A stretch of 64,000 nucleotides of DNA from Panopea generosa. Its lineage: Eukaryota; Mollusca; Bivalvia; Adapedonta; Hiatellidae. Where the stretch lies: the NCBI GenBank assembly GCA_029582155.1, contig CM055894.1, forward strand, positions 33,594,632 through 33,658,631. Reading direction: 5' to 3'. The notes below the pieces were generated by a model, which saw only the letters and a program-made list of their open reading frames with translations, ran no database searches and had not been told where the DNA came from. The position numbers and the translations under genes were made by a program. Of the stretch, positions 4,523-61,460 are shown in pieces; position 1 is the first letter of the stretch; every line of letters starts with the position of its first letter.

Positions 4523-4618
4523 TGTTGTTACTCTCATGTCGAATATCTTCAATCTCTGCATGCACTCCTAAACTCGTTAAACGCGTATTTGGTTCATCCG
4601 TAGGTTCATCCGTAGGGT
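4523..4618 (-). CDS. Mini-exon cassette 1 (96 nt, phase 1-1)
   Basis: Minus-strand cassette following TTTATTTCTCAG and followed by GTAATT. It reads 2 nt, 31 codons, 1 nt, open throughout, as PTDEPTDEPNTRL near its start and IEDIRHESNN at its end. A 12-nt in-frame duplication produces PTDE twice. The end resembles the RRESDN end of cassettes 3 and 6, which suggests common descent. The donor has lost the usual G at +5 and may be weak. No known family is recognised; the low-complexity, charged, short module would suit an extracellular or disordered repeat, but that is a guess. Confidence 0.4.
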
Positions 4619-7467
4619 CTGAGAAATAAATATACTACAATATGAACGGTTATAAGAGCAATATCATGTAAAATAGACAAATATACAAACCTACATATAC
4701 TCGCACAAGGACAAAATTAAATTGATGTTAACGTCAAAATGACTAGTTAATAATACTTTAAACTAAGGTGATATAGATTCAACAAACAACATATATCATG
4801 GATTAACAATAGAAATTACGAGCGAACGATTGTGGATCCTAGAACCAAACACTCATTCAGTTTCTGAGTCTTATGATACCTTATGACATAACCCCAAAAA
4901 TGTGTAGATTCTAGTAATTATTTTTGAGCTTCTAAATTGAATTAGATAAAAATGTACATTAAATCCAAATATATAAAATATTTGAATACTACGTAGTGCA
5001 ATGAATGATAGAGGCCACTAAGCACATTTTAATTACAAGTTTAAAAAACTGTCAATTAAAAATTGTTCCACTTTAAACCATTAACATTCGAGCAAAGGAG
5101 TGGATATAATAGCTCAAATTATGATGTATGGAAGTAATCTAAATAATGATTCTAAACACTTTGCATGCATAGTACATACTAATGATAAGTAATAACTCAA
5201 TCACACGAAACAGCATTTTTCTGTGTGTATGAGTAATAGTCACTAAACTTTAGAAACGTCTTTTCGGAACTGTACCTCTCGTTGTTTTGTACATAATCCT
5301 GATGTTGTATAAGAATTTAATGAATATATTTATGTTGCTTAACCGCACTCCAATATTTGAAATTATGTAATAGCATTTGCTGGAATAGACATGGAAACAT
5401 ATCTTAGCCTAAATCAAGTATTCTGATGTTACCAAGCAAGCATTGTTGTAGTAATGGTGGCTGATGTGATGCGTGATCAGTTCGTGTCGAAGGCTTGTCT
5501 GTTTCTGTTTTATGTATAGTATTTGTCCTGAAAAACCTTAAGGGTTCTGCATCGTCACCATTTAAGAGAGTGTTGCCAAACGATGATGTGGACAATGAAA
5601 CCAGTGCCAAATACCTAATGCATCACGTATGAAGTGTTACTGTCCATCACTAGTTTTGACGCGTTCTTTATCAACGGTACACAACTACCTGTTGGAAAAT
5701 GTATTTTTAAAAATGATTTTCTGCAATAGTTTCTTATTACAAGGAAATATTCTCTAAGTGATTGATTTCGCTAACTGTATGTGTATATAATCATTTGGAG
5801 CGCACAGAGATTTGTGTATCGCACTGTAAAGCAACCGCTGATAATTAGCACTGAATCTTGCTGTTGTATGGCAGTTTGAATGTGTTAATACCTGTACAAT
5901 ACACACATTTTTACTTCATCATGATGAATGGTTACATCAACTATTCCAATATAATGACATTGAATCGTCTCACCCACCTGTTGTGTGTTAGGGGCCAGTA
6001 GCCATTCCCGAGGAAAGCTTATTATAATCAACGAATCCAGCGCAAGCAATTCGCTGATTTATAACATTATGCAAAATAAAGACAGATACACACCGACATA
6101 TGTACACCCGAGGTCACAGATAATGCATGAGTATTGTGTGTGGCATCAGCGAGAGACACAAGACAGATAGGTGGACATATAGACATATACGGATAGGAAG
6201 CCAGACGATAAACGCCGATAGACGCCGAGATCGAGCCGCTTATAACACCCATCTTCATACAGAACAAGTACTACGTATAACTGTAACTATTTATCAAATT
6301 AATTTTATCTAACGCCACGATAACTACATCAATCATATCTGTATATAACTAAGGTGATACAGATTACAAAATCAACACATCTCGTTGATTAACGATCGAA
6401 ATCACAACCGAACGATTGTGGATCCGAGTTGTCTGCCTGCAAACGCTACTGTCTATGTTTACATACTTATAGTTTTTAGATGGACATTTAAACAATATCA
6501 CAATGTGTGTGTACGCCTTGTAGTATGAAAAAAAAAAAATTATTGCAGTGATAATTGTTGTAATGCGTTTTTATTAACGGCACCAAACATCCTGTTGGAA
6601 TTCGTATTTTAATAATAACTTTCTGCAACAGTTTCTGATTTCCAGGAAAAACTCTTAAAGCAATTGATTTAGCTTACTCTATGGGTATATAATCATTTGG
6701 AGCGCACATAGATGTTAAGTTAATGATAAGCACTGGATCGTGCTGTTGTATGGCAATTTGGCAGTTTGAATGTGTTAATACCTGCACAATACACACATTT
6801 TCACTTCATCATGGTTAATGGTTACATCAACTATTCCAATGTTATAACCTTCAATCGTCTCACCCAACTCTTGTGTGTTTTGGGTCAGTAGCCATTCCCG
6901 AGGAAGTCTTATTATGATAAGTGACTCAAGTGAAAGCAAATTAAAAAAAAGATAAAGCTGTTTTTTAATAAATACAAAAAATGGCTACTGAACAAATTGT
7001 TTTTTTTTGGTCTACGTCAAGCACCGATCGTAAACTTTATTATTGAAAAATGATAATTATTATGTAATATATGCACCTTCTTTAAACGAATCAATATGAG
7101 TTCAATCAGACAATGCCAGCCAAAAGGTCAGTTCTAAACATAAAATACTTTTCTTTTATATGATAAGTCAATATTAATGCTATATACAATTTTGAGACAC
7201 ACTTCTAAATGTAGAAAAAATAGACATATTCAGATATCTGATAATTTGTTTATCTATATCTGAATCAGATATACATATACACAGTCAAACATGCAGACGG
7301 GCCATGACTATATATGTTATATGAATGTAGGGAAACAGACATTGGCCATTATTCAGATATCTGATGATTCGTTTAACTATGCCTGTATGAGATATGCAGA
7401 CACACCGCCAGAAATCATAGGCACAGGTGGGCGTGATTATTTGACAAAATAATTATTAATAACTTAC
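4619..7467. other. Duplicated host blocks, intron-like
   Basis: Contains two copies of the recurrent host block described at 20990-21380 (about 5630-6030 and 6545-6925) and other segments seen again at 47.4-49.0 kb. Frames over this interval are broken by stops or by indels when copies are compared, so I read it as noncoding, probably intronic if the cassettes are exons. Confidence 0.5.
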
Positions 7468-7539
7468 TTTTGCATCTCTCTTCTGGAGATCGTATGGTAT
7501 CTTTTATAGACGGGAAACTCAGTGATTGATCCACAGGCT
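7468..7539 (-). CDS. Mini-exon cassette 2 (72 nt, phase 1-1)
   Basis: Minus-strand cassette after TTTTTATTGCTTAG and before a perfect GTAAGT. The phase-1 reading is PVDQSLSFPSIKDTIRSPEE followed by RCK. It is the duplicate partner of cassette 11 at 51,460. The two differ at only three bases, and each change replaces an amino acid (P to L, C to G, K to N). The module differs completely in sequence from the NEAN-type cassettes although the flanking DNA belongs to the same repeat family. Confidence 0.5.
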
Positions 7540-9349: not shown

Positions 9350-9359
9350 GTTGGAATGT

Positions 9360-10405: not shown

Positions 10406-10415
10406 GTTGGAATGT

Positions 10416-12112: not shown

Positions 12113-12130
12113 TTGTCATCTAACACAAAA

Positions 12131-16105: not shown

Positions 16106-16839
16106 AATTAAAAAGAAAGAAAGAATTGAATGTACTGTTATAACATGTTGATTAATCTACCATGAAACTGTTAGATGGTAAGAATTGAATGCACTGTTAT
16201 CATATATTGGCAAAAAATACCATGAAATTGATAGAAGGTAAGTAATAGACGCCACGTCATTACACATGTGTCCGCTACGTTAACGACGAGTAGACGTGAC
16301 AGGAAGTCAGCTGGTGGTAGTACAGTCATAAGGACAGCAACCCACATATTCGTCATATGGGTGACGTGACGGTCCTGACGTCGGAATACGGTCGACAGTC
16401 GGTACGAGGCAACGAACGCCGAAAGACGCAACGATCGAGTTGCTAGCATCTATTTATAACTGTAACTATTCATCAAATTAATGTTATTTCAACGCAACGA
16501 TAACTATATGATGTATATTACTAAGGTGATATAGATTGAACAAATAACACTTATCATTGATTAACTATCCAAATAACGAACAAAGATTTTATATGAAAAT
16601 TTATACAATATAACAATGTGTGTACACTTTGAAATATAAGTTTTAATAAAATAATGCAACGTTACGTGAATAAATGAACTCGTTAATACACATATTACGT
16701 ATAGTCTATGTGTAGAAAAAAGAGTAAACCGTTATTAACATTTTCCTCTTTGTATTTTATGGCAGAATCTGAGCAAAATCTGATCAAAATACAATAATGG
16801 TTATTTATGCTACAGCTAAGTATATTCGAATTGAAAATA
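16106..16839. other. Imperfect local repeats and host block
   Basis: Begins with two copies of a piece of about 55-60 bp (GAATTGAATGTACTGTTATAA / GAATTGAATGCACTGTTATCA, written as two variants). From about 16,450 it returns to the common host block. The part at 16,246-16,450 is unusually CpG-rich and is listed separately. No gene is recognised. Confidence 0.5.
16246..16450. promoter_or_regulatory. CpG-rich stretch with CRE-like half sites
   Basis: Several ACGTCA/TGACG half sites (near 16,254, 16,293, 16,361 and 16,376, the last as TGACGTCG) in about 130 bp. It occupies the position where other copies of the host block have ordinary AT-rich sequence, and can be loosely aligned to them at its right end (GCCG...ATCGAG). 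A minus-strand frame of 92 codons spans it but its homologues in other copies do not keep the frame. Confidence 0.3.
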
Positions 16840-18044
16840 TTTATTAATTTATATATATATATATATATATAAATATATTTGTTTTTAATTTCAACCACAA
16901 ACAGGTGGTCCATTAATCACCCCGTAATAGGTGTATTAGGGTTGAGGTGGGCCATCCATCTATACACCTTACAAAATTACATTATATGGCGTAGAAATAA
17001 TTTTTACAGTAATAATGTTTTATAACATTATTTTCGCTTTTTTTACAATTCATAACTAAATAGTTTTTTTCTTCTCTCTTCTTACTGCATTTATGTTTTC
17101 CCTTGAAAGCAATGTTTCTAAAAATTATTACAGATGTTTTTATCTCAGAAATTTAGAAAAAAAATCAATTCTTTCTGACACCATGCAAACTGGAGAGAAA
17201 GGATTTTTTATATACAATGTCTCTACATGTGATATATATAACAAACAAGAGAAACAAACAAACAAGTTTGTCCGGAATATTAAAACACATTTCCATACCA
17301 TCATGATGGTTTAAAATTTGTTTGTTTCATTGTTTAGTGAAGCTAAAATTGAGAAGGTGTAAATAGAAAAAAATTACATGTTATTGACATTATATTGTTA
17401 TAGCACAAAAAAACATTGTTTTAAAATGGACATCAGAAATAAAAAAGGAAGGGCCTCACAGACAATCGTATTAAAATACATATGTATATAATATTATTTA
17501 CTCAGCCAATTCATTGTAACAATAGCCCACATAATAATTTTTGTCAATAAAGTAGAATGTTGGTACAACTAGAGAGTTTCAGAAATTATGCTTTTGTAAT
17601 GTTTCCAAATTTTTGTTCAAGTGCAAATCTTTCAGTTTAGTTTAAAGGCTGCATATTTTTCAATTTTGTTAACTGATTTCAAGTTATTTATAAAATTGGC
17701 ATTAGATTGTTCTACCTTTTAAGTTTTTGATAGAATATGTGGCATTATCCCAGTATAATTTTTTTCATTTTGTATCAAATCTTAATTATTATTCCCTATA
17801 ATTATCTCTGAAACCGACCTATTAGTTATTACATTAGTACATATATGTTTGATGGAAATTGATAAGTTTGTTCAAAAAGTCTCTGATATTTCACAATCAT
17901 AGAAAATATGTTTAATGGTTTCTAAATTTATCACAAAAACTACAATTTTCAGAGTTGGAAATGTTCTTTTCTTTAAGAAAATAATTTGTTCCTAACATTT
18001 TGTGGTTAATACTGTACTGGAACCATTGTAATTATGTATCTTAG
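16840..18044 (-). mobile_element. Tx1/L1-like LINE 3' fragment (copy 1)
   Basis: Minus-strand insertion in a host block. TTGAAAATA at 16,831-16,839 is repeated at 18,045-18,053, a likely target-site duplication; the uninterrupted block is seen at about 24,500-24,560. The right part encodes, with breaks, sequence such as NCSFCD and HIFYDCE, the Cys/His knuckle region of Tx1/L1-type ORF2. The left end carries the CCTATTACGGGGTGATTAA-type tail followed by AT repeats. The same insertion is present at 49,681-50,813, so it predates that duplication. Confidence 0.7.
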
Positions 18045-19011: not shown

Positions 19012-19101
19012 TGTTGTCACTCTCTCGTCGAAAAAGTTGATGTCGACATTTTTTTTTCGCTCCTTTACGTATGAAACGCCAATATAATTTATCCGGATGC
19101 T
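19012..19101 (-). CDS. Mini-exon cassette 3 (90 nt, phase 1-1)
   Basis: Minus-strand cassette after TATTTATTTCTCAG and before GTAAGT. Open in phase 1 as HPDKLYWRFIRKGAKKKCRH, then QLFRRESDN. It is the duplicate partner of cassette 6 (25,530). I count 11 base differences between the two in 90 nt, against 9 in the 245 nt on the acceptor side. Eight of the nine altered codons change the amino acid. The module is strongly basic. No family is recognised. Confidence 0.5.
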
Positions 19102-22695: not shown

Positions 22696-22767
22696 TGATT
22701 TCATTCCTTTGTTGAATGTCTTCATTCGCTTCATTTGTTAAAGGACGACGTTCTAAATTCAACAAAT
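22696..22767 (-). CDS. Mini-exon cassette 4 (72 nt, phase 1-1)
   Basis: Minus-strand cassette after TATTTGTTACTCAG; the donor reads GTATTT and is probably weak. Open in phase 1 as LLNLERRPLTNEANEDIQQR, then NEI. A NEAN-type module with Leu instead of the usual Glu at the fourth codon, a change shared with cassette 5 next to it. The two arose by a local tandem duplication of about 207 bp. Confidence 0.4.
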
Positions 22768-22902: not shown

Positions 22903-22974
22903 TGATTTCATTCCTGTGTTGAATGTCTTCATTCGCTTCATTTGTTAAAGGACGACGTTCTAAATTGAACAAAT
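22903..22974 (-). CDS. Mini-exon cassette 5 (72 nt, phase 1-1)
   Basis: Minus-strand cassette after CTCAG with GTATTT as donor, like cassette 4. Open in phase 1 as LFNLERRPLTNEANEDIQHR, then NEI. It differs from cassette 4 by two replacements (L to F, Q to H), so it is a very recent copy that has still stayed open. Confidence 0.4.
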
Positions 22975-24536
22975 CTGAGTTACAAATAAAAAACAATATA
23001 AACGGTTACAAGAGCAACATCATGTCAAATAGAGACAGATACACACCCATATAAGAATACACAAGGACAAAGATAGTTCATAGTGAGTATTATGTGATGC
23101 ATCAGGAAGAGATACAAAACAAACAAGTAGATAGACGTATAGACATGTGCGGATAAACAGTCAGATATGAAACGCCGATAGACACTTCGATTGAGACGCT
23201 AACAACATACCTATGTATACAGAAACCAGTACTATGTATAACTGTTACTATTGATCAAATTAATTTTCTTTCAACGCCACGATAGTTTTTATTTGAAAAT
23301 TTATACAATATAACAATGTACGTGTACGCCTTGTATTATAAAACAAATATTGCAGTGTTAAAATAAATTACTTTTTGCAATATTCTCTCAGCGATTGATT
23401 TAGATAACTTCATTTGGAGCGCATAGAAATGTGTTTACCGCTCTGTAAATCAAACGATGTTTGATAATTAGCACTGAATCTTGCTGTTGTATGGCAGATG
23501 AAAGTTGTTATAACCAGTACAGTACACACATTTTTACTTCATCATGGTAAATGGTTACAATAACAATTCCAATGTAATGTCCTTGAATAGTCTCACCCAA
23601 CAGTTGTGTTTTTGTGGTAAATAGCCATTCCCGAGGAAGTCTTATTATAATCAATGACCCCAGTGAAAGTTTTATAATATATAAAAGAACGGCTGCTTGG
23701 CATTATATTTTTCCGTTTTACGTAAAGCAACAATACTAAACTAAAGTATTGAAAATGATATTTACCTTTCAATTAATTAGATAACCTAAAATATGTTGAA
23801 AATGGCGTTAAACCCCATTAAAAAATTAACTTCAGAAACTTGGAAATGAAAACTGCTTCACATAAAAAGGCACACTTTCATCAATAGGGTTTGTCGATGT
23901 GCATTGAAAAGTAAAGTATTTGTCATTTTGTTAATTATTTCTGTAGTAACAGATTATATACAGAATATGAAAACTTCTTAGTAAAGACACTACTACAACA
24001 CTAGGTTGATAAATTTTCATAACGTTATTTTGAACAATTTTGGAGTAATGCACCTGAAACAAATGTTGGCTATTGGTTCCATGATAATAGAAAAATATTG
24101 AAGTGGACTACATCATAGCAAAATGCAATACTTAACATTTCGAATGACATCTGTGCACTTTTTTGTGAAATTATCATGGACAGATTATAAATTATGACAA
24201 TTTTGTAATTTTGTATATTTGTTTTAATCTATGGTTTCAGAAAATACTTAAAATGACCCCATAGTAATATGCACTACTAGAACACGAGGTTAACATGTGC
24301 ACAATGTTTTGTGACGCTACCTTGAACAATATTGTTTTAATAAACTAATATAGTGTTACGTGATTACATGAACTCGTTAATAAACATATTACGTATAGTC
24401 TGTGTAGAAGATAGAGTATACTCACCACCATTACTAATTTCCTTCTTGTTATTTTCCACGTCTGATTCGTCGGCAGTATCTGAGCAAAATATATTTATGG
24501 TTACTTCGACTAAATATTTTGGAATTAAAGTTATTT
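22975..24536. other. Host blocks, noncoding
   Basis: Includes a copy of the recurrent block (23,345-23,660) and a segment at 23,790-24,290 that returns at 33,840-34,060. No gene is supported. Confidence 0.5.
23790..24030. repeat. Duplicated block (partner 33836-34060)
   Basis: Direct repeat of 33,836-34,060 beginning at AAATATGTTGAAAATGGCG / AAATATATTGAAAACGCCG. Moderately diverged, no frame conserved. Confidence 0.75.
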
Positions 24537-25529: not shown

Positions 25530-25619
25530 TGTTGTCACTCTCTCGTCGAAAAAGTTGATGTCGAAAAAGTTTATTAGCTCCTTTAGGTATGGAATGCCAA
25601 TCAAATTTATCCGGATGCT
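25530..25619 (-). CDS. Mini-exon cassette 6 (90 nt, phase 1-1)
   Basis: Minus-strand cassette after TTTATTTCTCAG and before GTAAGT. Open in phase 1 as HPDKFDWHSIPKGANKLFRH, then QLFRRESDN. Partner of cassette 3; the changes cluster in the middle (LYWRFIRKGAKKKC against FDWHSIPKGANKLF) while the ends are identical. This is the best single case for accelerated cassette change. Confidence 0.5.
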
Positions 25620-26726
25620 CTGAGAAATAAATATACGACAATATAAACGGTTATAAGAGCAACATCATGTAAAATAGAGACAGGTACGCACCGACATATA
25701 CTCGCACAAGGACACATATATTTAAATTTATTTTAACGTTACAATAACTAATTAATTATACCTTTAACTAAGGTGATATATGTGCAACATACAACACATA
25801 TCATTGATTAACGGTATAAATTACGACCGAACGATTGTGGATCCTATAACAAAACACTCATTCAGTCTCTGAGTCATATGATACCTGATGATGTAACCAT
25901 GTAGTTTTTTTTAGCTTCTAAATTTAATTAGATAAGTTGTTCACTAAGTCCAATTGTATAAAATATGTGAATATTACGTAGTGCAAAGATTGTTACAATA
26001 TTGGTGGTTTATCTAATGTATGTTCTGTTCGTGTCGGAAGATTGCCAGTTTTATGTTAAGTAATTATCCAAGAACCCTAAAGGTTCTGCATCCTCACCAA
26101 ATAAGAGAGTTTTGACGAACGATACTGTGGACAATGAAACCAGTGTCAAATAGTCTAAAGCATCACTTATGAAGTGTTATTTTCCAATCACTAGTTTTGA
26201 CATATTCTTTATTTACGGTACAAATCTTCCTGTTGGAAGATATATTTTAAATATGACTTTCTGCAATAGATTCTGATTTCCAGGAAATATTCTCTAAGCG
26301 ATTGATTTAGCAAACTTAATGTGTATATAAATTTGGAGCACAGACAGAGTTGTTTATCGCACTGTAAATCAACCGATATTTACATATAATAGTTTCTGAC
26401 GTCCATTAAATATTCTCTGAGCGATTGATTCAGCTAACTTGATGTGTATATAATCATTTGAAGCGCATAAAGATTTGTTTACCGCGCTGTAAAGCAATCG
26501 ATATTTAATAATTAGCACTAAATCTTGCTGTTGTATGGCAATTGAAATTTGTTAATACCTGTACAATACACTTATTTTTACTTCGTCGCGGTAAATGGTT
26601 ACATCAACTATTCCAATGTAATGACCTTGTTTAATTATATCTGAATCTTATATGCCAATAAACAGTCAAGTATGCAAGCCTGCAGATAGGTTTAACAATC
26701 AGAAACAAAATTTTTTGATAACTTAC
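25620..26726. other. Host blocks, intron-like
   Basis: Two overlapping copies of the recurrent block lie back to back (26,170-26,390 and 26,390-26,630). Nothing coding is supported. Confidence 0.5.
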
Positions 26727-26783
26727 CTGGCTTAAGAAGATTCAATGTATTTGTTCGAGGAATACTTTCTTCATTCAACCGAT
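26727..26783 (-). CDS. Mini-exon cassette 7 (57 nt, phase 1-1)
   Basis: Minus-strand cassette after TATTTATTACTCAG and before the best donor in the set, CCAG|GTAAGT. Open in phase 1 as RLNEESIPRTNTLNLLKP. It begins like the NEAN modules (RLNEE) but the second half is different and 15 nt shorter, still a multiple of three. It ends with G rather than A, so a joined next codon would begin with G. Confidence 0.45.
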
Positions 26784-27456
26784 CTGAGTAATAAATATAA
26801 AACAATATCAACGGGTATAAGAGCAACATCATGTAAAATAGAGACAGAAAGCAACTGGCATGTGTTCACACAAGGACACAGATGATACATGGTGAGTATT
26901 ATGTTGAGCATCAGGAAGAGATTCAAGGGAGACAGTTACACATATAGACATGTGCGGACTGGCAGCCATACGATAAACGCCGATAGACGCGACAATCGAG
27001 CCGCTAGCAACACACATACAGAAACATGTTCTATGTATAACTGTAACTATTCATCAAATTAATTATATTTCAAAGTCAGATTACACATAAAACATATAAT
27101 TGATTAACGATATAAATAACGACAGGACGATTGTGTATCCGATGTGTCTGCCTGCAAACATTACCGTCTATATATACATACTTAAATGTTTTTAGATGGA
27201 AATTGATACAGCATAACAATGTGTGTTCGCCTGAAATATTTATTTTAATAAACTAATGCAGCGTTACGTGAAAAAATGATCTCGTTTATAAACATATTAC
27301 GTATATTCTGTGTGTAGAAAATAGAGTAAACAATCATAACTATTTTCCTCGTTGTATTTTATGACAGAATCTGTGCAATATAAAGTAATGTTTTTTTTTG
27401 TCCTACGAATAAATATATTAGAATTGAACATATCTATTGATTCCTTCCAACAGTAT
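26784..27456. other. Host block up to the I/Nimb insertion
   Basis: Ordinary host-block sequence leading to the target site CAGTATTTATTGAAACGAA. No gene. Confidence 0.55.
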
Positions 27457-27711: not shown

Positions 27712-30700
27712 CTAAAAATGTTTAATCAGTTTAACCTCTTTTAAAAAGGCAAATATACTGGTTACATTAACTTTATCAAAAAGCTCTCTCATACTATTAA
27801 CCCTGTAGTACTTCGCTCTCATTGGAGCAAAGTCAACACAGTCGATAAGTATATGCTTAACAGTAAGCGGTGCAAAACAGGGCACACACTCTTGGACAGC
27901 TTCACGCTTTAAAAGATATGAATGGGTACAGCGGGTATGCCCTATTCTGCACCGAGCTAAAATAACTTCTTCTCGACGAATAATCCTATTGCTAGGATGC
28001 CATTCGCCAAGTTTTGGTTTGATATAATGTAACTTATTATGTATGGCAAGATCCCAAGAGGACTGCCATGAACTAAAAATATACTTATTAATATTAGATT
28101 TAAAATCTGTAAAAGGTAGTTTAAAAAATGAAATATTCAAGCTTAAGGCCGCTTTTGCAGCCTTATCAGCTTTATCATTTCCACTTATTCCTGTATGACC
28201 AGGAAGCCAGCAGAGAACAATAGTATTTTCTTTATATAGTATATTGTATTTATTTAAAAGTTGAAGAACAAGAGGATTATCATCTTTCATGCCGTCTATA
28301 GCTTGAAGAGATGAAAGTGAATCAGAAAATATAATAAACTGTTCTTTATCAGATTCATTAATGTAGTTAAATGCCAAATCAATGGCTTTAAGTTCAGCTG
28401 AAAAGATGGAGGCTACGTTTGGTAAACGGCTCTTTGAGATGTGCTGCCCCGTAACAGCAGCTGCAGCCACGGTACCTCCATCTTTAGAACCATCTGTATA
28501 TATTTGACAATAACGATTGTAAGACAATTTGACTTCATTAAACTTACTTTGGAAGATAGTGGAGTCTGTTTCAGATTTTTTGTCTTTACAAAGTTCAAAA
28601 ATGATTTTTGGCTTTTCCAAAGTCCATGGTGGTATTTGTGAGACTTTGTACTTAGCAATTAAATTAAGATCAATATTGGCTTCAGTGAGTTTTGGTTTGA
28701 TCCGGAGACAAAAAGTTCGAATAGCTTTAGGTATTTTATCAAATAGAGTTTCATAATAGGGGTCAAAAGTAATATTAAAAGCAGGATTAGATGGATTTGA
28801 ATGAAGTTTAATGGCATATTGAAGAGCCAGTTTGTCACGTCTTAAATACAATGATGGTTCATTTGCCTCTACATAAAGACTGTCGGCTGGGGACGTACGA
28901 AAGGCACCAAGGGCGAGTCGTAGTCCTTGGTTGTATATAGGATCAAGCATGGCTAAGTAAGACTTGCGAGCTGATCCATATACAATAGAGCCGTAGTCCA
29001 ATTTTGATCTGATTAGAGATCTGTAAAGTCTAAGTAAAACTTTACGATCTGCACCCCAATTAGTATTGGCAACAACTTTTAATAAATTTAGTGCTTTATT
29101 ACACTTTGTCTTAAGATATTTAAGATGAGGAATAAAAGTAAGATTACGGTAAAAAATAAGACCTAAAAATTTTGTTTCGTCAACAACAGGTATAGGTGTC
29201 CCATCTAACATTAGATTGGGATCATCGTGATGTTTACGTAGTTGACAAAAATGCATACAATTTGTTTTAGACTTAGAAAATTTAAAACCGTTTTCATCAG
29301 ACCAAGTCTGAAGTTTATTAAGGCATTGCTGTAGTTGCCTTTCAATAGTTTTCATATTTTTTGAACGGTAACAAATTACAAAATCGTCAACATATAAAGA
29401 GCAATCCACACCAGGACAATTAATTGTCTTAACAATATTATTAATTTTAATATTAAAAAGTGTGACAGACAGAATACTGCCTTGTGGGACGCCCATCTCC
29501 TGTTTGTGAACATCGGAGAGGGTTGTTCACATTCGGACTTGAAACTGTCTATCATCTAAAAAGTTTAAAATAAATGAAGCTAAACGGCCACGAAGGCCCA
29601 TATTATGAAGATCATTCATAATGCCATACTTCCACGTGGTGTCGTAGGCTTTCTCCAAGTCAAAAAATACAGCGACTAAATGTTCTTTCTTTATGAAAGC
29701 CTCCCGAACAGACGATTCAAATCTAACTAAATGGTCTGTAGTGCCCCTTTGGCGTCGGAATCCACTTTGATACTTAGTAATTAAGTTGTTGGATTCCATG
29801 AACCAAACGAGGCGACCATTAATCATACGTTCCATAGTTTTACAAACACAACTTGTCAAAGCAATTGGACGGTAATTAACTGGATCCGTGTTATCTTTCC
29901 CAGGTTTGGATACCGGAATAACGATAGCTTCCCTCCAAGACTCGGGGAAGTTTCCAGTCACCCAAACAGAGTTTAATATATCAAGTAGAATTAATAAGGA
30001 CGCTTCGGGTAAATGTTTTAAAAGTTGATAATGGATATCATCAGGACCAGCTGATGTATCATGTGCCTTCTTTAAGGAATTTTTCAATTCACTCAAAGAG
30101 AACTTCTTATTATATTTTTCTGAATTATTTGATTTAAAGTTTAGTTTCTGTTTTTCAGTCTGATGTTTATGTTTTAAAAATTTTGGATTGCAATTAGTGG
30201 TAGATGAATTTTTTTAAAAAAGTATCTGCCAAAGTATTAACGATGTCTTTGGCAGATGTGGCAGTATTATTTTCAGTTTTTAAATGGTTAACGCAACCTG
30301 GAGTACCCTTACCGTTGATTTTTCGGACCATGTCCCACGCCTTCTAAAGGGAAGTACGAGAATTAAGCCTAGAGACGTAAACTCTCCAGGACTTTCTCTT
30401 ACTCTCCTTAAGAGTACGTCTTGCTTTTGCACGAAACACTTTATAATTGTCTAAATTGTGTTGTGTAGGTCGTAAATTAAATTGACTTAAAGCTTTTTTA
30501 CGATCCTTGACTGCATTCTTGCAGTCAGCATCATACCATGGTTTTTGAGGGCGTTTTTGGATTTGTCGAGGTTTTTCTGCTATACTGTATAATATTGATG
30601 AAAACTGACGAGCAGGGTCATCCATATTGTTAAATAAATCAGGCTTTAACTGTTCTTCGCAGAGAGATTGAAACATAGGCCAATCTGCTTTGCAAAGTTT

Positions 30701-31399
30701 CCATCGTTGATTTCTATCGAGAAGTGGAGGTCCGATATTTGTAAGAAATATTGGATAATGGTCACTCCCGCAGAGGTCGTCACCAACACTCCATGAAAGG
30801 TCTAACAAAAGTGATGGCTCACAAACTGATAAATCGATGGAAGTTTTCGATCCTGAAGCAGGATGTAAATATGTATGAGATTTATAATCATTATAAAGAC
30901 ATAGGTTATTTTGATTTAAAAAAGATTCAACTTTATTACCTTTATCATTAATGTCTTTACAACCCCATATGTAATTGTGGGCATTAAAATCCCCCAAAAG
31001 CATAAAAGGTGATGGTAATTGTGCAATGAGTTGATCGAGATCCTTCGGATCAAGGGTTGCACTTGGTGGTAAATATAAAGAGCAAATTGTAATAACTCTA
31101 TGCATTGTAACACTAACTGCAACTGCTTGCAGATTAGTGTCCAATGCAAGAGTGCTGTGCGGGACGTTTCTATTGACAAGAATAGACACGCCACCAGTTG
31201 CTTTTTCACCTGTATCACAGATTGTATTATATAAAGAATACTGTTTAAAAGTAGTTTTATCATTTGACTGCAAAAAAGTTTCTTGAAGACAAAATGCAAT
31301 AGGGTTATGTTCATTTAAAAGTAAACTAATCTCATCATAATTTGGTTTTAAACCTCGACAATTCCATTGTATTATTTTATTTAAATTTGAATCGTTCAT
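27712..31399 (-). pseudogene. ORF2: endonuclease-RT-RNase H, three lesions
   Basis: Endonuclease (from 31,399): IIQWNCRG at about residues 9-16, Gln39-Glu40-Thr, GDFNAHN at about 136-142 and SDHYPI near 215. RT: YRPIALTSCVCKTMER, SGFRRQRGTTDHL, VFFDLEKAYDTTW (palm Asp), MGVPQGSILS and CSLYVDDFVICY (catalytic Asp pair). RNase H: YTDGSKDGG, FSAELKAID, FSDSLSSLQAI and WLPGHTGISGNDKADKAA, i.e. all D-E-D-D-type residues present. A C-terminal Cys/His region (CRIGHTRCTH, CVPC, HILIDC) follows. Lesions: in-frame TAG at 30,344-30,346, one extra base in an A run near 30,210-30,216, and in-frame TGA at 29,524-29,526. All catalytic motifs otherwise look intact. The ATG overlaps the ORF1 stop as ATGA. Confidence 0.93.
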
Positions 31400-33048
31400 T
31401 TAGGTGGAATAATAGGTGCCAAAGGGGCTTTAGTTTTTACGACCTTGGTAGAATCCGATGGTGCTTCATCGGTCTCCATATCAAGGTGTGAAAATTTGTT
31501 GTGCAACCGTACAGGGCCATCTGGTTCTTCAGGTTGTCTCCCCGTGACACACAATTTGGCAGAGGCCATATTTATTTTTCCAGCCCTACGTGGCGAAACC
31601 GAACTCTTGGTGTTACCAGAGCTCGATGGTTTTGGGGAGTTCGGGACATTCCCCGAGCTCTCCGGTTTTGAGGAACTCGAGACATTCCCCGAGTTCTCCG
31701 GTTTTGAAGAACTCGGAACTTTCCCCGAGTTCGTAGATTTCTGATCAGAAACAGATTTAATATTTTTCTTATTGTTTTTAAGATTAGGTTTTGGTTGTAT
31801 AAGAGGTTTTAATACCAATGTAGAGGTCTGAGTCTCAGATGAGATCTTGGAATTACCAGGCATAGAATTAGTATATGGCATTGGTTTATCATTTAGCCAG
31901 GTGATATCAGTTTGTATCTCAATACACCTTGTTACTTTTTTCTCTACATTTCTACTCACTTCCGCATATGATTTGCCTGAAGGAGCAGATGGAGATTGTA
32001 TGTTAACAAGGCGTCTTGCTTCTGGAAATGATATTTTTTTCTCCAGCTTAATCCGTTGGACCTCGCGTTCAATTTTCCATTTTGGACATTCTCTAGAGAA
32101 AGCCCCGTGTTTCCCGTTGCAATTAACGCAACAGGCGGGTTTAGTGCACGACGAGAAGTCTGTGTGTCCCGCTTCACCGCATCGGGCACACACCGCGTCT
32201 CGTCTACATCTCTCTCGATGATGTCCAAACTGTTGACAGTTAAAACAACGAAGAGGATTTGGAATGTACATGTCAACAGGTAAAGACAGATAACCGATCT
32301 TTATAGTTTTGGGAAGAATTGGGTTGTTAAATGTCAGTATAAATGTGTTGGTAGGTTTAACAATGCCATTTTTCTCAGTAGTGATCCTGGTAACCTCTGA
32401 AACTCCCTGCGATTTCAGATTTACACTCATTTCCTCAGCAGTACACTGTTCCAGTTCCCTGGAACGAATGACGCCTTTGGAGGTATTGAGTGTAACATGA
32501 GGACGGATCTCTACCGGTATATCCACAAATCGTTTTACTGATAGTAAATTGTCCGAGTGTGATTTTTTTAAGCATTCAATGAGGATTTTATCTGATTTTA
32601 TTTTCTTCACCTCCCGCGGCTCACCGGCAAAACAAAGTATTGCCTTGTGAATCGCAAAAGGTGAAAGTTTTGTTACTGGTCTATTAGCATCAGTTGAAGT
32701 AATGGTCAAGAATCGAGGCCAGTTCACGGTATGTTTATCATCATCTGATTCAGTCCCAACAGAATCGTGTCGAGCACGCTTGTGTAAAGACTGAGCAGGT
32801 ATAGGTCGGTTAGTATTGTTTTGGTGTGTTGGTTTTGAAGCCATAATGAGTTTGTGTTTGGTTCGATGTCCACGTTTCTCACCCGCCTCGGAGCCCAACA
32901 AGGGGACACATGCTGTAGATATCCGACAGACATGATGCCAAGAATACGTGAACAATAAACTCCAGCAAAGTAATACATTAGATCCCGCATACCACCTGAT
33001 GGATGTAAATTCAAGTCCCAACAAGACAAGAACCGCACCAACATCCAT
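31396..33048 (-). CDS. ORF1 (gag-like nucleic-acid-binding protein)
   Basis: Open for 550 codons. The first 68 codons look like 5' UTR (hydrophobic, Cys-rich, unlike gag), and I favour the ATG at 32,844 (MASKPTHQNN), giving 482 residues. Three Cys/His knuckles lie at about residues 268-321 of the long form: CFNCQQFGHHRERC, CARCGEAGHTDFSSC and CVNCNGKHGAFSREC. They are expected to bind the element's RNA and form the RNP used for target-primed reverse transcription. The C-terminal third is Ser/Pro/Lys-rich with a 12-residue tandem repeat. The reading frame has no lesion, unlike ORF2. Downstream ORF2 starts within the stop (ATGA), pointing to termination-coupled reinitiation. Confidence 0.92.
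   Translation of the reverse strand: MDVGAVLVLLGLEFTSIRWYAGSNVLLCWSLLFTYSWHHVCRISTACVPLLGSEAGEKRGHRTKHKLIMASKPTHQNNTNRPIPAQSLHKRARHDSVGTESDDDKHTVNWPRFLTITSTDANRPVTKLSPFAIHKAILCFAGEPREVKKIKSDKILIECLKKSHSDNLLSVKRFVDIPVEIRPHVTLNTSKGVIRSRELEQCTAEEMSVNLKSQGVSEVTRITTEKNGIVKPTNTFILTFNNPILPKTIKIGYLSLPVDMYIPNPLRCFNCQQFGHHRERCRRDAVCARCGEAGHTDFSSCTKPACCVNCNGKHGAFSRECPKWKIEREVQRIKLEKKISFPEARRLVNIQSPSAPSGKSYAEVSRNVEKKVTRCIEIQTDITWLNDKPMPYTNSMPGNSKISSETQTSTLVLKPLIQPKPNLKNNKKNIKSVSDQKSTNSGKVPSSSKPENSGNVSSSSKPESSGNVPNSPKPSSSGNTKSSVSPRRAGKINMASAKLCVTGRQPEEPDGPVRLHNKFSHLDMETDEAPSDSTKVVKTKAPLAPIIPPK
31618..31740 (-). repeat. 36-bp minisatellite within ORF1
   Basis: About three and a half units of 36 bp encode variants of SGNVPSSSKPES. 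The length keeps frame. This likely lengthens a flexible linker between the knuckles and the C-terminus, and copy number probably varies between element copies. Confidence 0.8.
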
Positions 33049-37634: not shown

Positions 37635-37706
37635 TGATTTCATTCTTTTGTTGAATGTCTTCATTCGCTTCATTTGTTAAACGACGACGTTCTTCAGGCA
37701 AACCAT
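37635..37706 (-). CDS. Mini-exon cassette 8 (72 nt, phase 1-1)
   Basis: Minus-strand cassette after TATTTATTACTCAG and before GTAAGT. Open in phase 1 as GLPEERRRLTNEANEDIQQK, then NEI. This copy alone also has an open upstream extension (a Met-initiated hydrophobic run, MMLILQPLILFCIYYS), because a TAA present in the other copies reads CAA here. It could therefore act as a first exon with a signal-peptide-like start, but the change looks derived and may be accidental. Confidence 0.48.
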
Positions 37707-44101: not shown

Positions 44102-44173
44102 TGATTTCATTCCTTTGTTGAATGTTTTCGTTCGCTTCATTTGTTAAAGGACGACGTTCTTCATTCAACAACT
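44102..44173 (-). CDS. Mini-exon cassette 9 (72 nt, phase 1-1)
   Basis: Minus-strand cassette after TATTTGTTTCTCAG and before GTAAGT. Open in phase 1 as LLNEERRPLTNEANENIQQR, then NEI: close to the consensus of the NEAN class. Starts with AG, so the codon completed across the junction would be Lys if the preceding exon ends in A. Confidence 0.5.
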
Positions 44174-46815: not shown

Positions 46816-49028
46816 TTTTAACAAATAAGACCGACACCATTTGAAAATTGAAGCGATTCTATTGGTTGTCAAAGGAAGTTTAAGTTTAATTTAATTCTAT
46901 GAAGTTATTTTATTTCGTATGACCTCTTCCAACGATACAATATAATGTTATCACTTTAGCTTGGATACAACATGTCTCATCAAAATAAATGTCATATAGT
47001 TATTACTATAATGTACCACATTCAATGCATTATTTTTGTGTAAGCAGTGTAGCCATATGTTACATATATGATTACATATTGCGCTGTATGCGTGATACTT
47101 GATTGATGTTTACGTGACCTAATGTCAGTTACATAGACATTCACGTAAAGTTGCAGTATTGCCTTTTGTTTTAAAAGAATAAAATCATAAAATATATATG
47201 GTGAAATAACAACATAATATTCATCATGTATGTGAATACAGCGAGCGTCTGTATAATCAGTTATGATTGTGTGTGAGCATTTAGACGAACGTAATATCCT
47301 GTAATCAAACACATATTCAGTATCGTATGATATCTGACGACTTCAATTATACACTGTAAATTATACAATGTATACTGAGTGATTTATTTAGTTAACTGTA
47401 TGTGTATATAATCATTTGGAGCGCACAGAGATATGTTTATCGCACTGTAAAGCAACCGATGATAATTAGGACTGAATCTTGCTGTTCTATGGCAGTTTGT
47501 ATGTGTTAATACCTGTACAATACACCCATATTTACTTCAGCATGGTGAATGGTTACATCAACTATTTTAATGTAATGACATTGAATCGTCTCACTCAACT
47601 GTTGTGTGTTAGGGGCCAGTAGCCATTCCCGCGGAAATCTTATTATAATCAACGAATCCAGCGAAAGCTATTCGCTGATTTATAACATTATGCAAAATAG
47701 AGACAGATACACACCGACATATGTACACACGAGGACACAGATAATGCATGAGTATTGTGTGTGGCATCAGTAAGAGACACAAGACAGATAGGTGGACATA
47801 TAAACATATACTGATAGGAATCCAGACGATAAACGCCGATAGACGCCGAGATCGAGCCGCTAAAATCACCCATCTCCATACAGAACAAGTATTACGTATA
47901 ACTGTAACTATTTATCAAATTAATTTTATCTAACGCCTCGATAACTACATCAATAATATATGTATATAACTAGGGTGATACAGATTACAAAATCAACACA
48001 TCTCATTGATTAACGATCGAAATCACAACCGAACGATTGTGGATCAGATGTATCTGCCTGCAAACGCTACCGTCTATGTTTACATACTTATAGTTGTTTA
48101 TAGATGGACATTTAAACAATATCACAATGTGTGTACGCCTTGTAGTATGATAAAAAACAAATATTGCAGTGATAATTTCCAATCACCAGTTTTGATGTGG
48201 TTCTATTAACGACACAAAACTTTCTGTTGGATTTCGTATTTTAAAAATAGCTTTATACAACAGTTTTTGATTTCCAGGAAATACTCTTAAAGCAATAGAT
48301 TTAGGATACTCTATGGGTATATAATCATTTGGAGCGCACATAGATGTTAAGTTATTGATAAGCACTGAATCGTTCTTTGTATGGCAATTTGAATGTGTTA
48401 ATACCTGTACAATACACACATTTTTACTTCATCATGGTAAAATGTTTACATTAACTATTCCAATGTTATAAACTTGAATCGTCTCACCAAACTCTTGTGT
48501 GTTTTGGGTCAGTAGCCATTCCCGAGGAAGTCTTATTATGAAAAGTGACTCCAGTGAAAGCAAATAGCTGTTGTATAATAAATACAATAATGGCTACTGA
48601 ACAAATTGTTTTTTGTTTTTTTTAGTTTACGTCAAGCACCGATCCTAAACTAAATTATTGAAAATGATATTTATTATGTAATATATGCACTTTCTTTAGT
48701 AAACAAATCAATAGGATTTCGACTCAGACAATACCAGTCAAAAGGTCAGTTCTATGCATAAAATATACATTAAAACATCTAATGACATTTGTAAAGATGA
48801 ACATTCATCGATACTTTTCTTTTATATGTTAAGTCAATATTAATGCTTTAAACAATTTTGCAATTAAAATACATCTGCACCGTAACTTTGAGACATACTT
48901 CTAAATGTAGAAAAATAGACATCAGATGTCTGATAATTTGTTTATCTATATCTGAATCAGATATACAGATACACAATCAAGCATACAGACGGGCGTGACA
49001 ATCAGACACAGTAATTTTAATAACTTAC
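46816..49028. other. Host blocks, noncoding
   Basis: Matches 3830-4230 and 5745-7290 of copy A, with recurrent blocks at 47,375-47,645 and 48,170-48,540. At about 47,640-47,700 the cassette expected by layout is missing: host block joins directly to acceptor-side intron sequence. Confidence 0.5.
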
Positions 49029-49100
49029 TCATTTCTGGCCATTGTCGAATTTCTCTATCCGCTTCACTTGGACAAGGAATATGTACTTCATTCAACGAAT
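49029..49100 (-). CDS. Mini-exon cassette 10 (72 nt, phase 1-1)
   Basis: Minus-strand cassette after ATATTTGTTACTCAG and before GTAAGT. Open in phase 1 as SLNEVHIPCPSEADREIRQW, then PEM. It keeps the spacing of the NEAN class (LNE...EA...IxQ) but differs at more than half of the residues, including two Pro and one Cys. Missing from copy A of the long duplicate. Confidence 0.5.
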
Positions 49101-49680
49101 CTGAGTAACAAATATTGAACAATATAAACATTTATAAGACGACATCATGTATAATACAGACAAATATGCACCGACATATAGACATGTGCAGATAGGTAAC
49201 AAGATATGGAACACCGATAGTCGCTAACAACTGTTTATAACTGTTACTATTCATCAAAAATATATCTATTTCAACGCTATGATAACTGTATCATGTTCTT
49301 AACTAAGGTGTTATTGATTAAACAAACAACACATATCATTGATTAACGATCCAATTACGACCAAACGATTGTGGATCCGATGTGTCTGTCTGAAAACACT
49401 ACCGTCTATATATACATGCTTAAAGATTTAAGATGGAATTTTTTACAATATAACAATGCGTGTACATTTAGAAATATAACTTTTAATAAACATACAACGT
49501 TACGTGAATAAATTAACTCGATTATATACATATTACGTATAGTATATATGTTCAAAAAAAGAGTAAACCAGCATTACTAATTTCCTCTTTGTATTTCATG
49601 ACAGAATCTGAGCAAAATCTGAGAAAAATACATTAATAGTTATTTATACTACAACTAAATATATTCGAATTGAAAAACTT
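49101..49680. other. Host block, intron-like
   Basis: Acceptor-side sequence of cassette 10 leading to the Tx1-like fragment. No gene. Confidence 0.5.
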
Positions 49681-50813
49681 TATTTATTGATTTGTTTGTT
49701 ATAAGTTTTCTTAATTTCAACCACCAAAAGGTTATCAATTTAACCACCCCGTAGGTGTATAGGTGTAGGTGTATAAGGGTTGTGGTTGGCCATCTCTCTA
49801 TACACCTTACAGAATTACATCATATGGCATAGATATAATTTTTAAAGTAATAATGTATAATAACATTCCTCCTTTAATTCAACAATTCATAACTAATTAG
49901 TGTTTTTTCTACTCTCATTATGCTGCATGTATGTTTTCCTTTGGAAACAATATTTCTAAAAATGATTACAGATATCTTTATCTCAGAAAATTTTTTTTTT
50001 CAATTCTTTCTGTCACCATGCACACTGGAGAGAGAGGATCTTTTTATATACATTATCTCAACAGATAATATTTGTAACAAACAAACGAAACAAATAAACA
50101 AGGTTTTCCGAAAATTTAAAACACATTTTCATACCCTCATGATGATTTAAAATGTGTTTGTTTCATTGCTTAATGAAGCTAAAATTGAGGAGGTGTAGGT
50201 AGAAAAATTGACTTGTTATTTACATTATATTGTTATAAGCACAAAAAACATTGTTTTACATCGGCAACAGAAGAAAAAAGGAAGGGCATCACAGACACTC
50301 GTATAAATATATACTAATAATATGTATATATATCTACAAATGTATATACTTACTCAAACAATTCATTGTAACAAAAGTACACATCATTTTTTTTGTCAAT
50401 ATAGTAGAATGTTGGTACAACTAGAGAGTTTTAGAAATTATGCTGATGTTATGATTCCACAATTCAAACAATTGGCACAATATTGTTCTACCTTTATTGG
50501 TGTTGATAGAATATGTGGTATTATCCCAGTATCAAAATTGTATTTAGTATTAAATCATAATTATTATTCCCTATTATTATATCTGAAACCGACCAATTTG
50601 TTATTACATTAGTACATTTATTTTTGATGAAAATTTATCAGTTTGTCCAAAAAATCTCTTATATTTCACAATCATAGAAAATATGTTTAATGGTTTCTAC
50701 AGATTTATCACAAAAACTACAATTTTGGAAATGTTCATTTCTTTAAGTGAATAAATTGTTCCTCAAATTATGTGGTTAATTCTGTACTGGAATCATTGTG
50801 ATTATGTATCTTG
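49681..50813 (-). mobile_element. Tx1/L1-like LINE 3' fragment (copy 2)
   Basis: Same insertion as 16,840-18,044, in the same host block and orientation, with similar tail (GGGGTGGTTAAATTGATAAC-type on the minus strand) and knuckle-region remnants near 50,650-50,740. The tail region contains an extra short tandem (GTAGGTGTATAGGTGTAGGTG). Coding frames are broken. Confidence 0.7.
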
Positions 50814-51459: not shown

Positions 51460-51531
51460 TGTTGCCTCTCTCTTCTAGAGATCGTATGGTATCTTTTATA
51501 GACGGGAAACTCAGTGATTGATCCACAGGCT
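51460..51531 (-). CDS. Mini-exon cassette 11 (72 nt, phase 1-1)
   Basis: Minus-strand cassette after TATTTTTGTTGCTCAG and before GTAAGT. Open in phase 1 as PVDQSLSFPSIKDTIRSLEE, then RGN. Partner of cassette 2, with three replacements and no synonymous change. The flanks of this pair are more diverged than the cassette itself, which favours retained function. Confidence 0.5.
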
Positions 51532-55426: not shown

Positions 55427-55498
55427 TGATTTCATTCCTTTGTTGAATGTCTTCATTTGCTTCATTTGTTAAAAGACGACGTTCTTCATTCAACAAAT
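55427..55498 (-). CDS. Mini-exon cassette 12 (72 nt), donor lost
   Basis: Minus-strand cassette after TATTTCTTACTCAG. Open in phase 1 as LLNEERRLLTNEANEDIQQR, then NEI, but followed by TATGTA where other copies have GTAAGT. Without a donor it would be skipped or read into the intron, so I regard it as a recently silenced copy. Confidence 0.35.
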
Positions 55499-56064
55499 CT
55501 GAGTAAGAAATATAAAACAATATAAACGGTTATCAGTGCAATCATGTCAAATAGAGACAGATACGCACCGGCATGTGTTCACACAAGGACACAGATAATG
55601 CATGGTGAGCAATATTTTGGGCATCTGGAAGAGATAAAAGACAGACAGATGGACATATAGACATGTACTGAAAGACAACCAGACATGAAACGGCAATAGA
55701 CACCACGACCGAGCCGCTAACAGCATTCATATACATACAGAACCAAGTACTATGTGTAACTATTTATCAAATTAATTTTATTTCAACGCCACGATAAGTA
55801 CTTCAAAACTATATGCATATAACTAAGGTGAAACAGATTAAAGAGGCCTCGCCTATACATGTTATGTCCACAAAATGATCCAAACGTACATAGTCTGAAA
55901 AAAACCTATGTAAATTGAAGAAATCGATGCGATTTTCTACAACACGTATTACTTTATAGACATAAGTGTTTAAAAAGGTCGTCTTTAAACAATTGAATTC
56001 GTGATTGATTTTAGAAATCCGAAGATTTATAATTGTCAAGTGACATGAAAAATGAAGTGTCTAT
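55499..56064. other. Host block then unique DNA
   Basis: Host block to about 55,850, followed by sequence not repeated in the window. No gene. Confidence 0.45.
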
Positions 56065-56187: not shown

Positions 56188-56329
56188 AGTTTCTTATTGG
56201 CAGGACAGGTGTTCGACAAGGGAAGTAAGTCACGACAGATATCAAGGGGTGTAAGCATATATCCGGGCCTTTTCAAGCATTTTAGAAATTAGGTTGAGAT
56301 TGATAGGATCTGACACTCGTCATTGTGAG

Positions 56330-59641: not shown

Positions 59642-61070
59642 TTGTTCTAATCTTTTGTTCAATGTCTTTATTCGCTTCATTTGTAAAAGACTTACGTCCT
59701 TCATCCAACCGATCTGAGAAATATATATAAAGAACTAACAACGGTTATAAGAGCAACATCATGTAAACTAATGACAGAGAAACACTGACATATGTAAACA
59801 CAAGGTCAAAGATAATGCACCGTAACTGTGAGATATACTCTAAAATGTAGGGAAACAGACATTGACCATTATTCAGTTGTCTGATAATTTGTTCAACTAT
59901 TTGTTTAACTTTATCTAAATCAGATATGGAAATACACAGTCAAGCATGCATACCCGCAGATGGACGTAACAATACACAATATTTAAATCAACGAATCTGA
60001 CAAATACATATAAAACAATATAATCGGTTATAAGAGCACCATTATGCAACATAGAGGCAGATACACACCGACATATGTATATACAAAAACACATATAATG
60101 CATGGAGAGCATGGTGTGTGGTATCAGGAAGAGTAACAAGACAAACAGGTAGACTTAGAGACATGTGCAAATAGACTGCCAGACATGAAACGCTGATAAA
60201 CGCCGAGATCGAATCACTATCAACACACATATACATACAGAAACAAGTGCTATGTATAACTGTAACTATTTATCAAATTTATTTAATTTTAACGCCATGA
60301 TAAGTACATCAATATCATATGTATATAAATAGGGTAATACAGATTGCACAAACAACACATATTGATTAACGATCAGAATTACGACCGAACAATGATTATT
60401 GTGGATCCGCTATGTCTATCTGCAAACGCTACCGTCTATGTTTACGTACTTAAAGTTTGTAAATGGCCATTTAAACAATATAACAATGTGTGTGTACGCC
60501 ATGTAATATAGAAACAAATATTGCAGTGATATTCTCCAATCACTAGTTTTGATTCTTTATTACGGTAAACAATTTCCTGTTGGAGTTCGTATTTTAAAAA
60601 AAATACTTTCTGCAATAGTTTCTTATTTCCAGGAAATACTCTCAAAGCGATTGATTTAGCTAACTCTTTGTGTATAAAATCATTTGGAGCGCACAGAGAT
60701 TTGTTTATCGCACTGCACTGCAACCGATGTTTAGCACTGAATCTTGCTGTTGTATAGCAATAAGGCAGTTACCTGTACAATACACAAATGTTTACTTCAT
60801 CATGGTAATTGATTACATCAACTATTCCAATGAAATGACCTTGAATCGTCTCACCATCTGTTTTGAGGGTCAGAAGCCATTACCGAAGAAGTCTTATTAT
60901 AATAATTGGCTCCAGTGAAAGCAAATACAAGTTTTATAATATATACAAGACGGGCTGCTTAACATAATTTTTTTTCCGTTTTACGTAAAGCACCAATACT
61001 AAACTATAGTATTGAAAATAATATTTACCTTTCAATAAATTATACAATCATTATGTAATGCATGCACTTT
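59310..61070. repeat. Tandem host unit of about 1.76 kb
   Basis: The segment CTCAGACAATGCCAGTCAAAA-like at about 59,340 returns at about 61,095, with the same order of parts in between: palindrome, cassette, acceptor-side intron, GATTAACGATC-like motif, recurrent block. The next unit is interrupted by the 165-bp array at 61,958 and continues at 63,823. This is the clearest view of the basic amplified unit. Confidence 0.75.
59642..59713 (-). CDS. Mini-exon cassette 13 (72 nt, phase 1-1)
   Basis: Minus-strand cassette after TATATATATTTCTCAG and before GTAAGT. Open in phase 1 as RLDEGRKSFTNEANKDIEQK, then IRT. Compared with cassette 14 in the next unit it differs at 12 bases in ten codons, and all ten altered codons change the residue. 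Confidence 0.5.
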
Positions 61071-61388
61071 CTTTAGTAAGCTAATCAATGGTACATTGAC
61101 TCAGCCAATGTCATTCAAAAGTTCAGTTCTAAACATAACATATACATTCAAAGATCTTATGGCATTTGTAAGCATGAACATACATCAAAACTTGTCTTTA
61201 ATATGCAAAATCTATATCTTGCTATATAAATGTGGAACTTTGCAATCAAATTATATATGCACCGTATTATGAGACATACTCTTCAATACAGAGAAAAAGA
61301 CATTGATCATTATTTAGATGTCTGATGATTTGTTTAACTATATCTGAATCATATATACAAGTACACAGCACAAGTTTAAATAACTTAC
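59714..61388. other. Host unit, intron-like
   Basis: Contains a second acceptor-side intron copy at about 60,000-60,240 whose cassette has been deleted down to a few bases (CAACGAATCTGAC at about 59,990). The minus frame 60,442-60,723 lies in the recurrent block and is not conserved. Confidence 0.5.
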
Positions 61389-61460
61389 TGCTTCCAATCT
61401 CTTGTCCAATGTCTTTATTCGCTTCATTTATAAAAGGCATACGTTCTTCATCCCACATAT
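61389..61460 (-). CDS. Mini-exon cassette 14 (72 nt, phase 1-1)
   Basis: Minus-strand cassette after ATATTTCTTTCTAAG and before GTAAGT. Open in phase 1 as MWDEERMPFINEANKDIGQE, then IGS. The most upstream cassette seen for a gene read right to left; further members may lie beyond the window. Confidence 0.5.

Follow-up and report, generated by a model that had tools for sequence, protein, structure and literature searches.

Arrays of symmetric mini-exon cassettes in the Panopea generosa genome: probable coding exons of a large gene family

The stretch of DNA analysed here (hereafter, the window) comprises 64,000 nucleotides (nt) of the bivalve Panopea generosa, C1:33594632-33658631 in a genome of 1.474 Gb and 39 contigs, with 68% A+T, and carries on its minus strand fourteen putative mini-exon segments, each of them following a T-rich stretch and AG. 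Their lengths are 57, 72, 90 or 96 nt, every one a multiple of three; the frame which starts after two bases (frame +2) is open in all fourteen, while neither remaining frame is open in all of them, and no stop codon arises at the junction in any of 182 ordered joins of these exons, whose last base is A in thirteen cases and G in one. A GT donor is kept in 13 of the 14 and takes the form GTAAGT in ten, the remaining sites reading GTAATT, GTATTT (twice) and TATGTA (Table 1). Three related cassette types can be distinguished: type A, mostly of 72 nt and LLNEERRPLTNEANEDIQQRNEI-like, with one member of 57 nt at 26727; type B, which in the window has 90-96 nt and a peptide of the form HPDK... or PTDEPTDEP...; and type C, of 72 nt, with PVDQSLSFPSIKD... 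An earlier, sequence-only reading of this DNA had given the positions, the strand, the AG, the lengths, the open frame and the ten GTAAGT donors, all of which hold on recomputation. Its inventory is kept in full, with the addition of a broken copy (59983-60092), two relics (6063-6120 and 47684-47741) and one exon of a second family (24426-24479) which it had missed. We read these segments, with a probability of about 0.75, as coding mini-exons belonging to a large family of genes of micro-exon type that would grow by the duplication of blocks.

The array, which had been described from the window and is indeed found there, goes on beyond it. A neighbourhood of 100 kb on each side of the window was scanned (264 kb in total), and positions outside the window are also given in window coordinates. 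A and B cassettes run for about 96 kb upstream of the window, on the same strand, to about 160 kb, which is near the end of the sequence examined, the intact ones reaching 154 kb, while from 4523 down to about -79.9 kb no A, B or C cassette was found. In addition, a second exon family is present, consisting of D exons of 54 nt (four in the 264 kb, one of them inside the window) and E exons of 33 nt, at 163426-163458 and -78064..-78032. Cassettes of types A to E share a single strand across 150 kb or more. In the whole genome, at least 51 matches to a B query, at least 42 to an A query and at least 48 to an E query were obtained, these figures being lower bounds, with further sites possible, since the best 40 of 158 (B), 142 (A) and 52 (E) candidates were scored. 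Matches to cassettes lie on C1 at 18.5, 25.4-27.7 and 32.6-36.6 Mb (both strands), with one at 0.93 Mb, and on C10 at 56.3-56.6 Mb. Nearly full-length E matches at 79% identity or more account for 22 of the 48, which may serve as a rough number of array units.

Part of the support for reading the segments as exons is the constraint on their frame. The sample consisted of 75 upstream-flank matches, taken from the 264 kb and from 27 of 30 B-query loci (L001, L003 and L019, which lie inside the 264 kb, were left out), and a usable downstream flank was available for 60 of them, the 15 dropped including some plainly broken copies (such as 59983, 152624, 95294, 96325 and 96643). Exon length is a multiple of three in 52 of these 60 copies, which fall into nine size classes (48, 57, 72, 75, 84, 87, 90, 93 and 96 nt); among the 37 copies that differ from 72 nt the same is true of 29. 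Four of the eight copies of other lengths (70, 76, 88 and 94 nt) look like cases in which the script wrongly chose a neighbouring splice site. Both a length divisible by three and an open frame are found in 49 of the 60, and all signals in 44, with the cassette at 55427 counted via its shifted donor; by a looser count, 45 of the 75 are intact. In the flanks, net indels are non-zero in 17 copies over the upstream 100 nt, none being a multiple of three, and in 40 copies over the downstream 90 nt, six being so, which gives 6 of 57 for both flanks combined. Frameshifts in the cassettes, the frequency of which the sequence-only reading had proposed to compare with that of the flanks in close relatives, are rarer than those around them, the comparison made here being one between paralogues.

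The cassettes also stand out when they are not looked for as such. When minus-strand AG...GT segments of the window with a length divisible by three were compared with their copies in duplicated blocks, 24 rows passed, and the first 12 of them held 11 cassettes out of the 14, along with a fragment nested in the one at 49029; the cassettes at 22903, 26727 and 55427 failed to pass. In the 264-kb scan, where divisibility by three was not required, the 17 best minus-strand rows were all A, B or C cassettes of 72-96 nt, with lengths divisible by three and frame +2, and the best rival row, just below them, was a segment of 25 nt. In the flanking introns, used as a control with 72-column windows in six frames (1128, 1398, 1194 and 1434 tests in aligned introns), no window stayed intact in as many as 90% of the copies. 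The best control windows reached 10/13 upstream and 11/13 downstream for all types, and 7/8 and 6/8 for type A alone, as against 14/14 for the exons; as the copies share duplications, such figures are contrasts and not probabilities.

For about 66% of its length, the window contains a further copy of itself on the same strand, the single inverted high-scoring segment pair (HSP) lying outside the cassettes. The order of cassettes from 154 to 135 kb is largely the same as that from 61 to 37 kb, one B taking the place of a C and one A, which means that multi-exon blocks have been copied, while the close pair 22696/22903 represents the duplication of a single cassette. Homologous intron flank surrounds the breakpoint at 7301/7302, which would fit unequal exchange. 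In a tree of the 44 intact copies, the split between A and B/C received 100/100, with C placed inside B on a long branch. The earlier proposal of a large gene or gene family growing by cassette duplication is thus well supported, given the same-strand copies, the recurring blocks, the many genomic sites and the exon frame kept while the flanks drift. The same proposal had also invoked Dscam-like exon arrays. Genes of the Dscam type contain arrays of homologous exons of similar length, and in this the cassettes resemble them. As to the complementary docking and selector pairs of mutually exclusive arrays, no inverted complement of the cassettes or of their near flanks was found in the window; a docking site may be short or may lie outside it.

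Among the fourteen segments, the mean pairwise identity amounts to 76% in the upstream 110 nt, 61% in the exons and 66% in the downstream 150 nt. The upstream intron contains a 28-base element with 12 occurrences at up to 3 mismatches, all on the minus strand, where 0 are expected, and the TATAAC within it, together with the T-rich tract that comes after, suggests a branch site and a pyrimidine tract. A signal-like reading of the stretch upstream of 26727 and 37635 was dropped, as this stretch is TAA in most other copies, where a branch site followed by a pyrimidine tract would again be the better reading. Furthermore, a profile of the downstream intron weakly matches the upstream intron of several cassettes (E 3.9e-5 at 55544-55617), which hints at direct repeats flanking the exon.

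With respect to the encoded peptides, the commonest residues in the 44 intact A, B and C cassettes are E, N, R, L, P and D, with cysteine at 0.6%. The proportion of differing nonsynonymous sites (pN) exceeds that of differing synonymous sites (pS) in 27 of 30 window pairs, each with about 12-17 silent sites and with copies shared among pairs. Of 46 block comparisons, 28 show the exon diverging more than its flank (p < 0.05) and none shows it diverging significantly less, the rows being non-independent since they share copies; the 28 mostly set different types or older copies against each other. An ungapped figure for the flanks, 179/1368, was discarded because misaligned pairs inflate it. These data point to a frame that is mostly kept and a protein sequence that is either free or driven to change.

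As judged from the DNA, the finding is real and larger than first described, namely a family of giant arrays with a clear frame constraint. The A, B and C cassettes of about 19-32 codons (phase 1-1), one related family, are interleaved with the D/E family of 11-18 codons and multiply by the duplication of single exons and of multi-exon blocks; most copies retain their frame and splice signals, and amino acids change at about the pace of silent sites. In the organization proposed, the cassettes would be spliced in phase into a long, charged and probably disordered repeat protein. Because the introns would interrupt codons behind their first base, the gain, loss, skipping or joining of cassettes would stay in frame, so that protein variants could be produced via copy number or alternative splicing. 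The phase-1 design and the fast change invite guesses at secretion, as well as at a role in the extracellular matrix or in contact with other organisms. A bolder version, in which some twenty giant genes with two symmetric mini-exon families would form a system of exon-level diversity, block duplication and skipping yielding large sets of fast-changing, disordered, secreted proteins in a lineage for which no such genes have been described, is speculative and, in our opinion, rather doubtful.

Several points weigh against the sequence-based coding reading, and many of them would equally be expected from decay, that is, from former exons most arrays of which, that of the window included, would now be relics carried along by segmental duplication. 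Of the 60 copies, 16 are less than fully intact, having lost a donor, acquired a stop or suffered a deletion, and under the looser criteria 30 of 75 are not intact, nine of them flank-only; moreover, the 15 matches dropped tilt the 60 towards intact copies and thereby favour a coding interpretation. Relics are present in the window itself. In 18 disjoint sister pairs, pN was 0.076 and pS 0.061 (pN/pS 1.25, p = 0.44), a ratio not different from 1, by which purifying selection on the protein is not indicated and positive selection not proven, and in the youngest duplicate pairs exon and flank have equal divergence. Nevertheless, decay would hardly leave 49 of 60 copies open and divisible by three when only 6 of 57 non-zero flank indels are multiples of three, nor the GT donor in 13 of the 14 window cassettes, and we hold it to be unlikely. 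The D and E exons, in addition, are open in frame 0 as well as in frame +2, the latter being open in all four D and both E exons; above the support threshold, D rows appear in frame +2 only and E rows in both frames, so that the phase of E is unsettled. A non-coding conserved or transposon-borne element mimicking an exon could account for the roughly 100 nt of upstream intron being more similar among copies than the exons are. However, the window copies all lie on one strand within segmental duplications, the single inverted HSP pair being outside the cassettes, no Rfam match was obtained at gathering scores, and the lengths preserve the frame, all of which makes such an element very improbable.

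If the segments are coding exons, the number and the nature of the genes have still to be considered. Instead of one giant gene, a tandem family of several ordinary-sized genes with some cassettes each is a possibility to be taken seriously, if a tentative one: a D or an E cassette is met again at about 163, 103, 84 and 24 kb, where it could mark a 5' start, and the genome holds E-like copies at some 22 places (a lower bound). On the other hand, the 1.05 kb between the B cassette at 25530 and the D cassette at 24426 leaves little space for gene ends, and a paralogue-based scan of the window blocks found no convincing first or last exon, a result which also tells against the coding interpretation as a whole. 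That scan yielded 24 candidates on the minus strand and 13 on the plus strand, the best having 17-33 codons and 2-3 supporting copies. In a separate set of 24 signal-like rows, three candidate signal-peptide exons (-30460..-30391, -36687..-36609 and -71285..-71237) lie upstream of the next E cassette; none could be tied to an array, where such an exon would correspond to the N-terminal signal peptide of schistosome micro-exon genes. As to the product, a long structural matrix protein, rather than a diversity-generating secreted family, would be in keeping with the gene design of elastin, which has small symmetric phase-1 cassettes and long introns, as is the case here, and with a charged composition containing proline. 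Unlike elastin, the peptides are charged and not a hydrophobic repeat, E, N, R, L, P and D being the commonest residues, and in older pairs the exons outpace their flanks (28 of 46 comparisons), so that a matrix protein of this kind seems doubtful. For the coding reading itself, a last adverse point is that the 350-residue conceptual splice of the fourteen cassettes found no match at E <= 10 among 7998 scored candidates, in a database which seems to be without spliced animal proteins. In fact, no animal species appears among the 120 matches listed for a retroelement query, and the database being probably of that kind, the null result says little. Ferritin matches in PDB were at chance level (best E 0.59) and a Pfam match was sub-threshold (E 0.9); both were rejected.

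Two known systems share the exon design of the coding family favoured here. Schistosome micro-exon genes (MEGs) are described as combining long introns with numerous short exons, most of them multiples of three, and as having symmetric exons which permit alternative splicing; in some members the ratio of nonsynonymous to synonymous substitution rates (dN/dS) exceeds 1 in places; the exons are most often of 15 bp, the longest protein has 189 residues, and MEGs are said to be confined to platyhelminths (PMC10526429, PMC4350168). For exon size, the abstract of the first of these (PMC10526429) gives 3-81 bp, and a range of 6-81 bp is stated in running text. The exons described here are likewise short and mostly multiples of three (52 of 60 for A, B and C; 54 nt for D; 33 nt for E), but, unlike those of MEGs, they range from 33 to 96 nt, with 72 as the usual size, and extend over no less than 150 kb, and type B, mostly of 84-96 nt, goes beyond the MEG range. 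Aphid bicycle genes have many small internal exons, nearly all starting at codon position 2, and diverge rapidly, one megacycle gene containing more than 100 micro-exons (PMC9168663). Internal exons here also begin at codon position 2 (all fourteen are open in frame +2, as are the four D and two E exons, which are open in frame 0 too), whereas no CYC-type motif is apparent in the 44 intact cassettes, as would agree with their 0.6% cysteine. Differences lie in exon sizes, in array scale and in the apparent want of a CYC-type motif. The array is assigned to neither group, and is likened to them by exon design and not by sequence.

Among the literature matches listed (titles and the beginnings of abstracts), flatworm micro-exon genes, from schistosomes and from tapeworm work using the term, and aphid bicycle genes were found, and no mollusc gene of such a design, which is no proof of absence. 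Standard annotation would pass over genes built as mini-exon arrays, given the small size and wide spacing of their exons and the want of known homologues. Should the arrays be expressed, the micro-exon gene plan of schistosomes and aphids would occur elsewhere and at a much larger scale, and one could measure directly how exons are gained and lost, how the frame is constrained and how fast the protein changes among dozens of paralogous cassettes in one genome.

Table 1. Cassettes, relics and other features of the window (window coordinates)
Feature	Position	Strand	Length (nt)	Sequence	Remarks
B cassette	4523..4618	-	96	PTDEPTDEPNTRLTSLGVHAEIEDIRHESNN	donor GTAATT; last A/B/C before a stretch of ~84 kb without any found
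C cassette	7468..7539	-	72	PVDQSLSFPSIKDTIRSPEERCK	
B cassette	19012..19101	-	90	HPDKLYWRFIRKGAKKKCRHQLFRRESDN	
A cassette	22696..22767	-	72		donor GTATTT; close tandem copy of the 22903 cassette
A cassette	22903..22974	-	72		donor GTATTT
D cassette	24426..24479	-	54	TADESDVENNKKEISNG	donor GTGAGT
B cassette	25530..25619	-	90	HPDKFDWHSIPKGANKLFRHQLFRRESDN	
A cassette	26727..26783	-	57	RLNEESIPRTNTLNLLKP	
A cassette	37635..37706	-	72	GLPEERRRLTNEANEDIQQKNEI	
A cassette	44102..44173	-	72	LLNEERRPLTNEANENIQQRNEI	
A cassette	49029..49100	-	72	SLNEVHIPCPSEADREIRQWPEM	
C cassette	51460..51531	-	72	PVDQSLSFPSIKDTIRSLEERGN	
A cassette	55427..55498	-	72		usual donor lost (TATGTA); in-frame GTATTT 3 nt on gives 75 nt, scored intact
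A cassette	59642..59713	-	72	RLDEGRKSFTNEANKDIEQKIRT	
A cassette	61389..61460	-	72	MWDEERMPFINEANKDIGQEIGS	
Relic cassette	59983..60092	-			upstream intron and acceptor present; donor and most of exon gone
Flank-only cassette relic	6063..6120	-			
Flank-only cassette relic	47684..47741	-			
Degenerate D relative	16655..16848	-			consensus donor not found
Degenerate D relative	27257..27456	-			consensus donor not found
Degenerate D relative	49493..49697	-			consensus donor not found
Conserved upstream intron (example)	25620..25720	-	~100		probable branch site and pyrimidine tract; precedes A/B/C cassettes
Long interspersed nuclear element (LINE)	27712-33048	-			550-aa ORF1-like frame without Pfam match; endonuclease frame 30344-31399; stop-interrupted reverse transcriptase-RNase H frame

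Further searches of DNA gave no transfer RNA, no match to intron and exon patterns in viral_contigs and none to two intron patterns in genome_contigs, two collections which by description are without animal genomes. The LINE of Table 1 sits between the cassettes at 26727 and 37635, and the retroelements of the window are of the endonuclease-reverse transcriptase-RNase H kind. In the cassette-free stretch below 4523, open reading frames of at least 85 codons occur, which look like low-complexity repeats and some retroelement fragments. Outside the window, four similar AG...GT segments of 78 nt, open in frame 0 and ASASNGNVSEPIPSLKEEKHNHTNSN-like, lie in a duplicated block at L035 and L037 (111247-113247 and 126907-128907), and their status as exons is uncertain. 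A minisatellite-like repeat at L047 (about -65.7 to -63.8 kb; NGGRGGNSxCRDIIG-like in one frame) has an exon-like score and the look of a tandem repeat. Within the window, a tandem repeat of about 107 bp occupies 9-853 with eight copies and extends below the window start to about -1.9 kb, and a further set of tandem repeats, of 143-310 bp and having GACCTTGACCTTT-like units, is found at 62728-63752.

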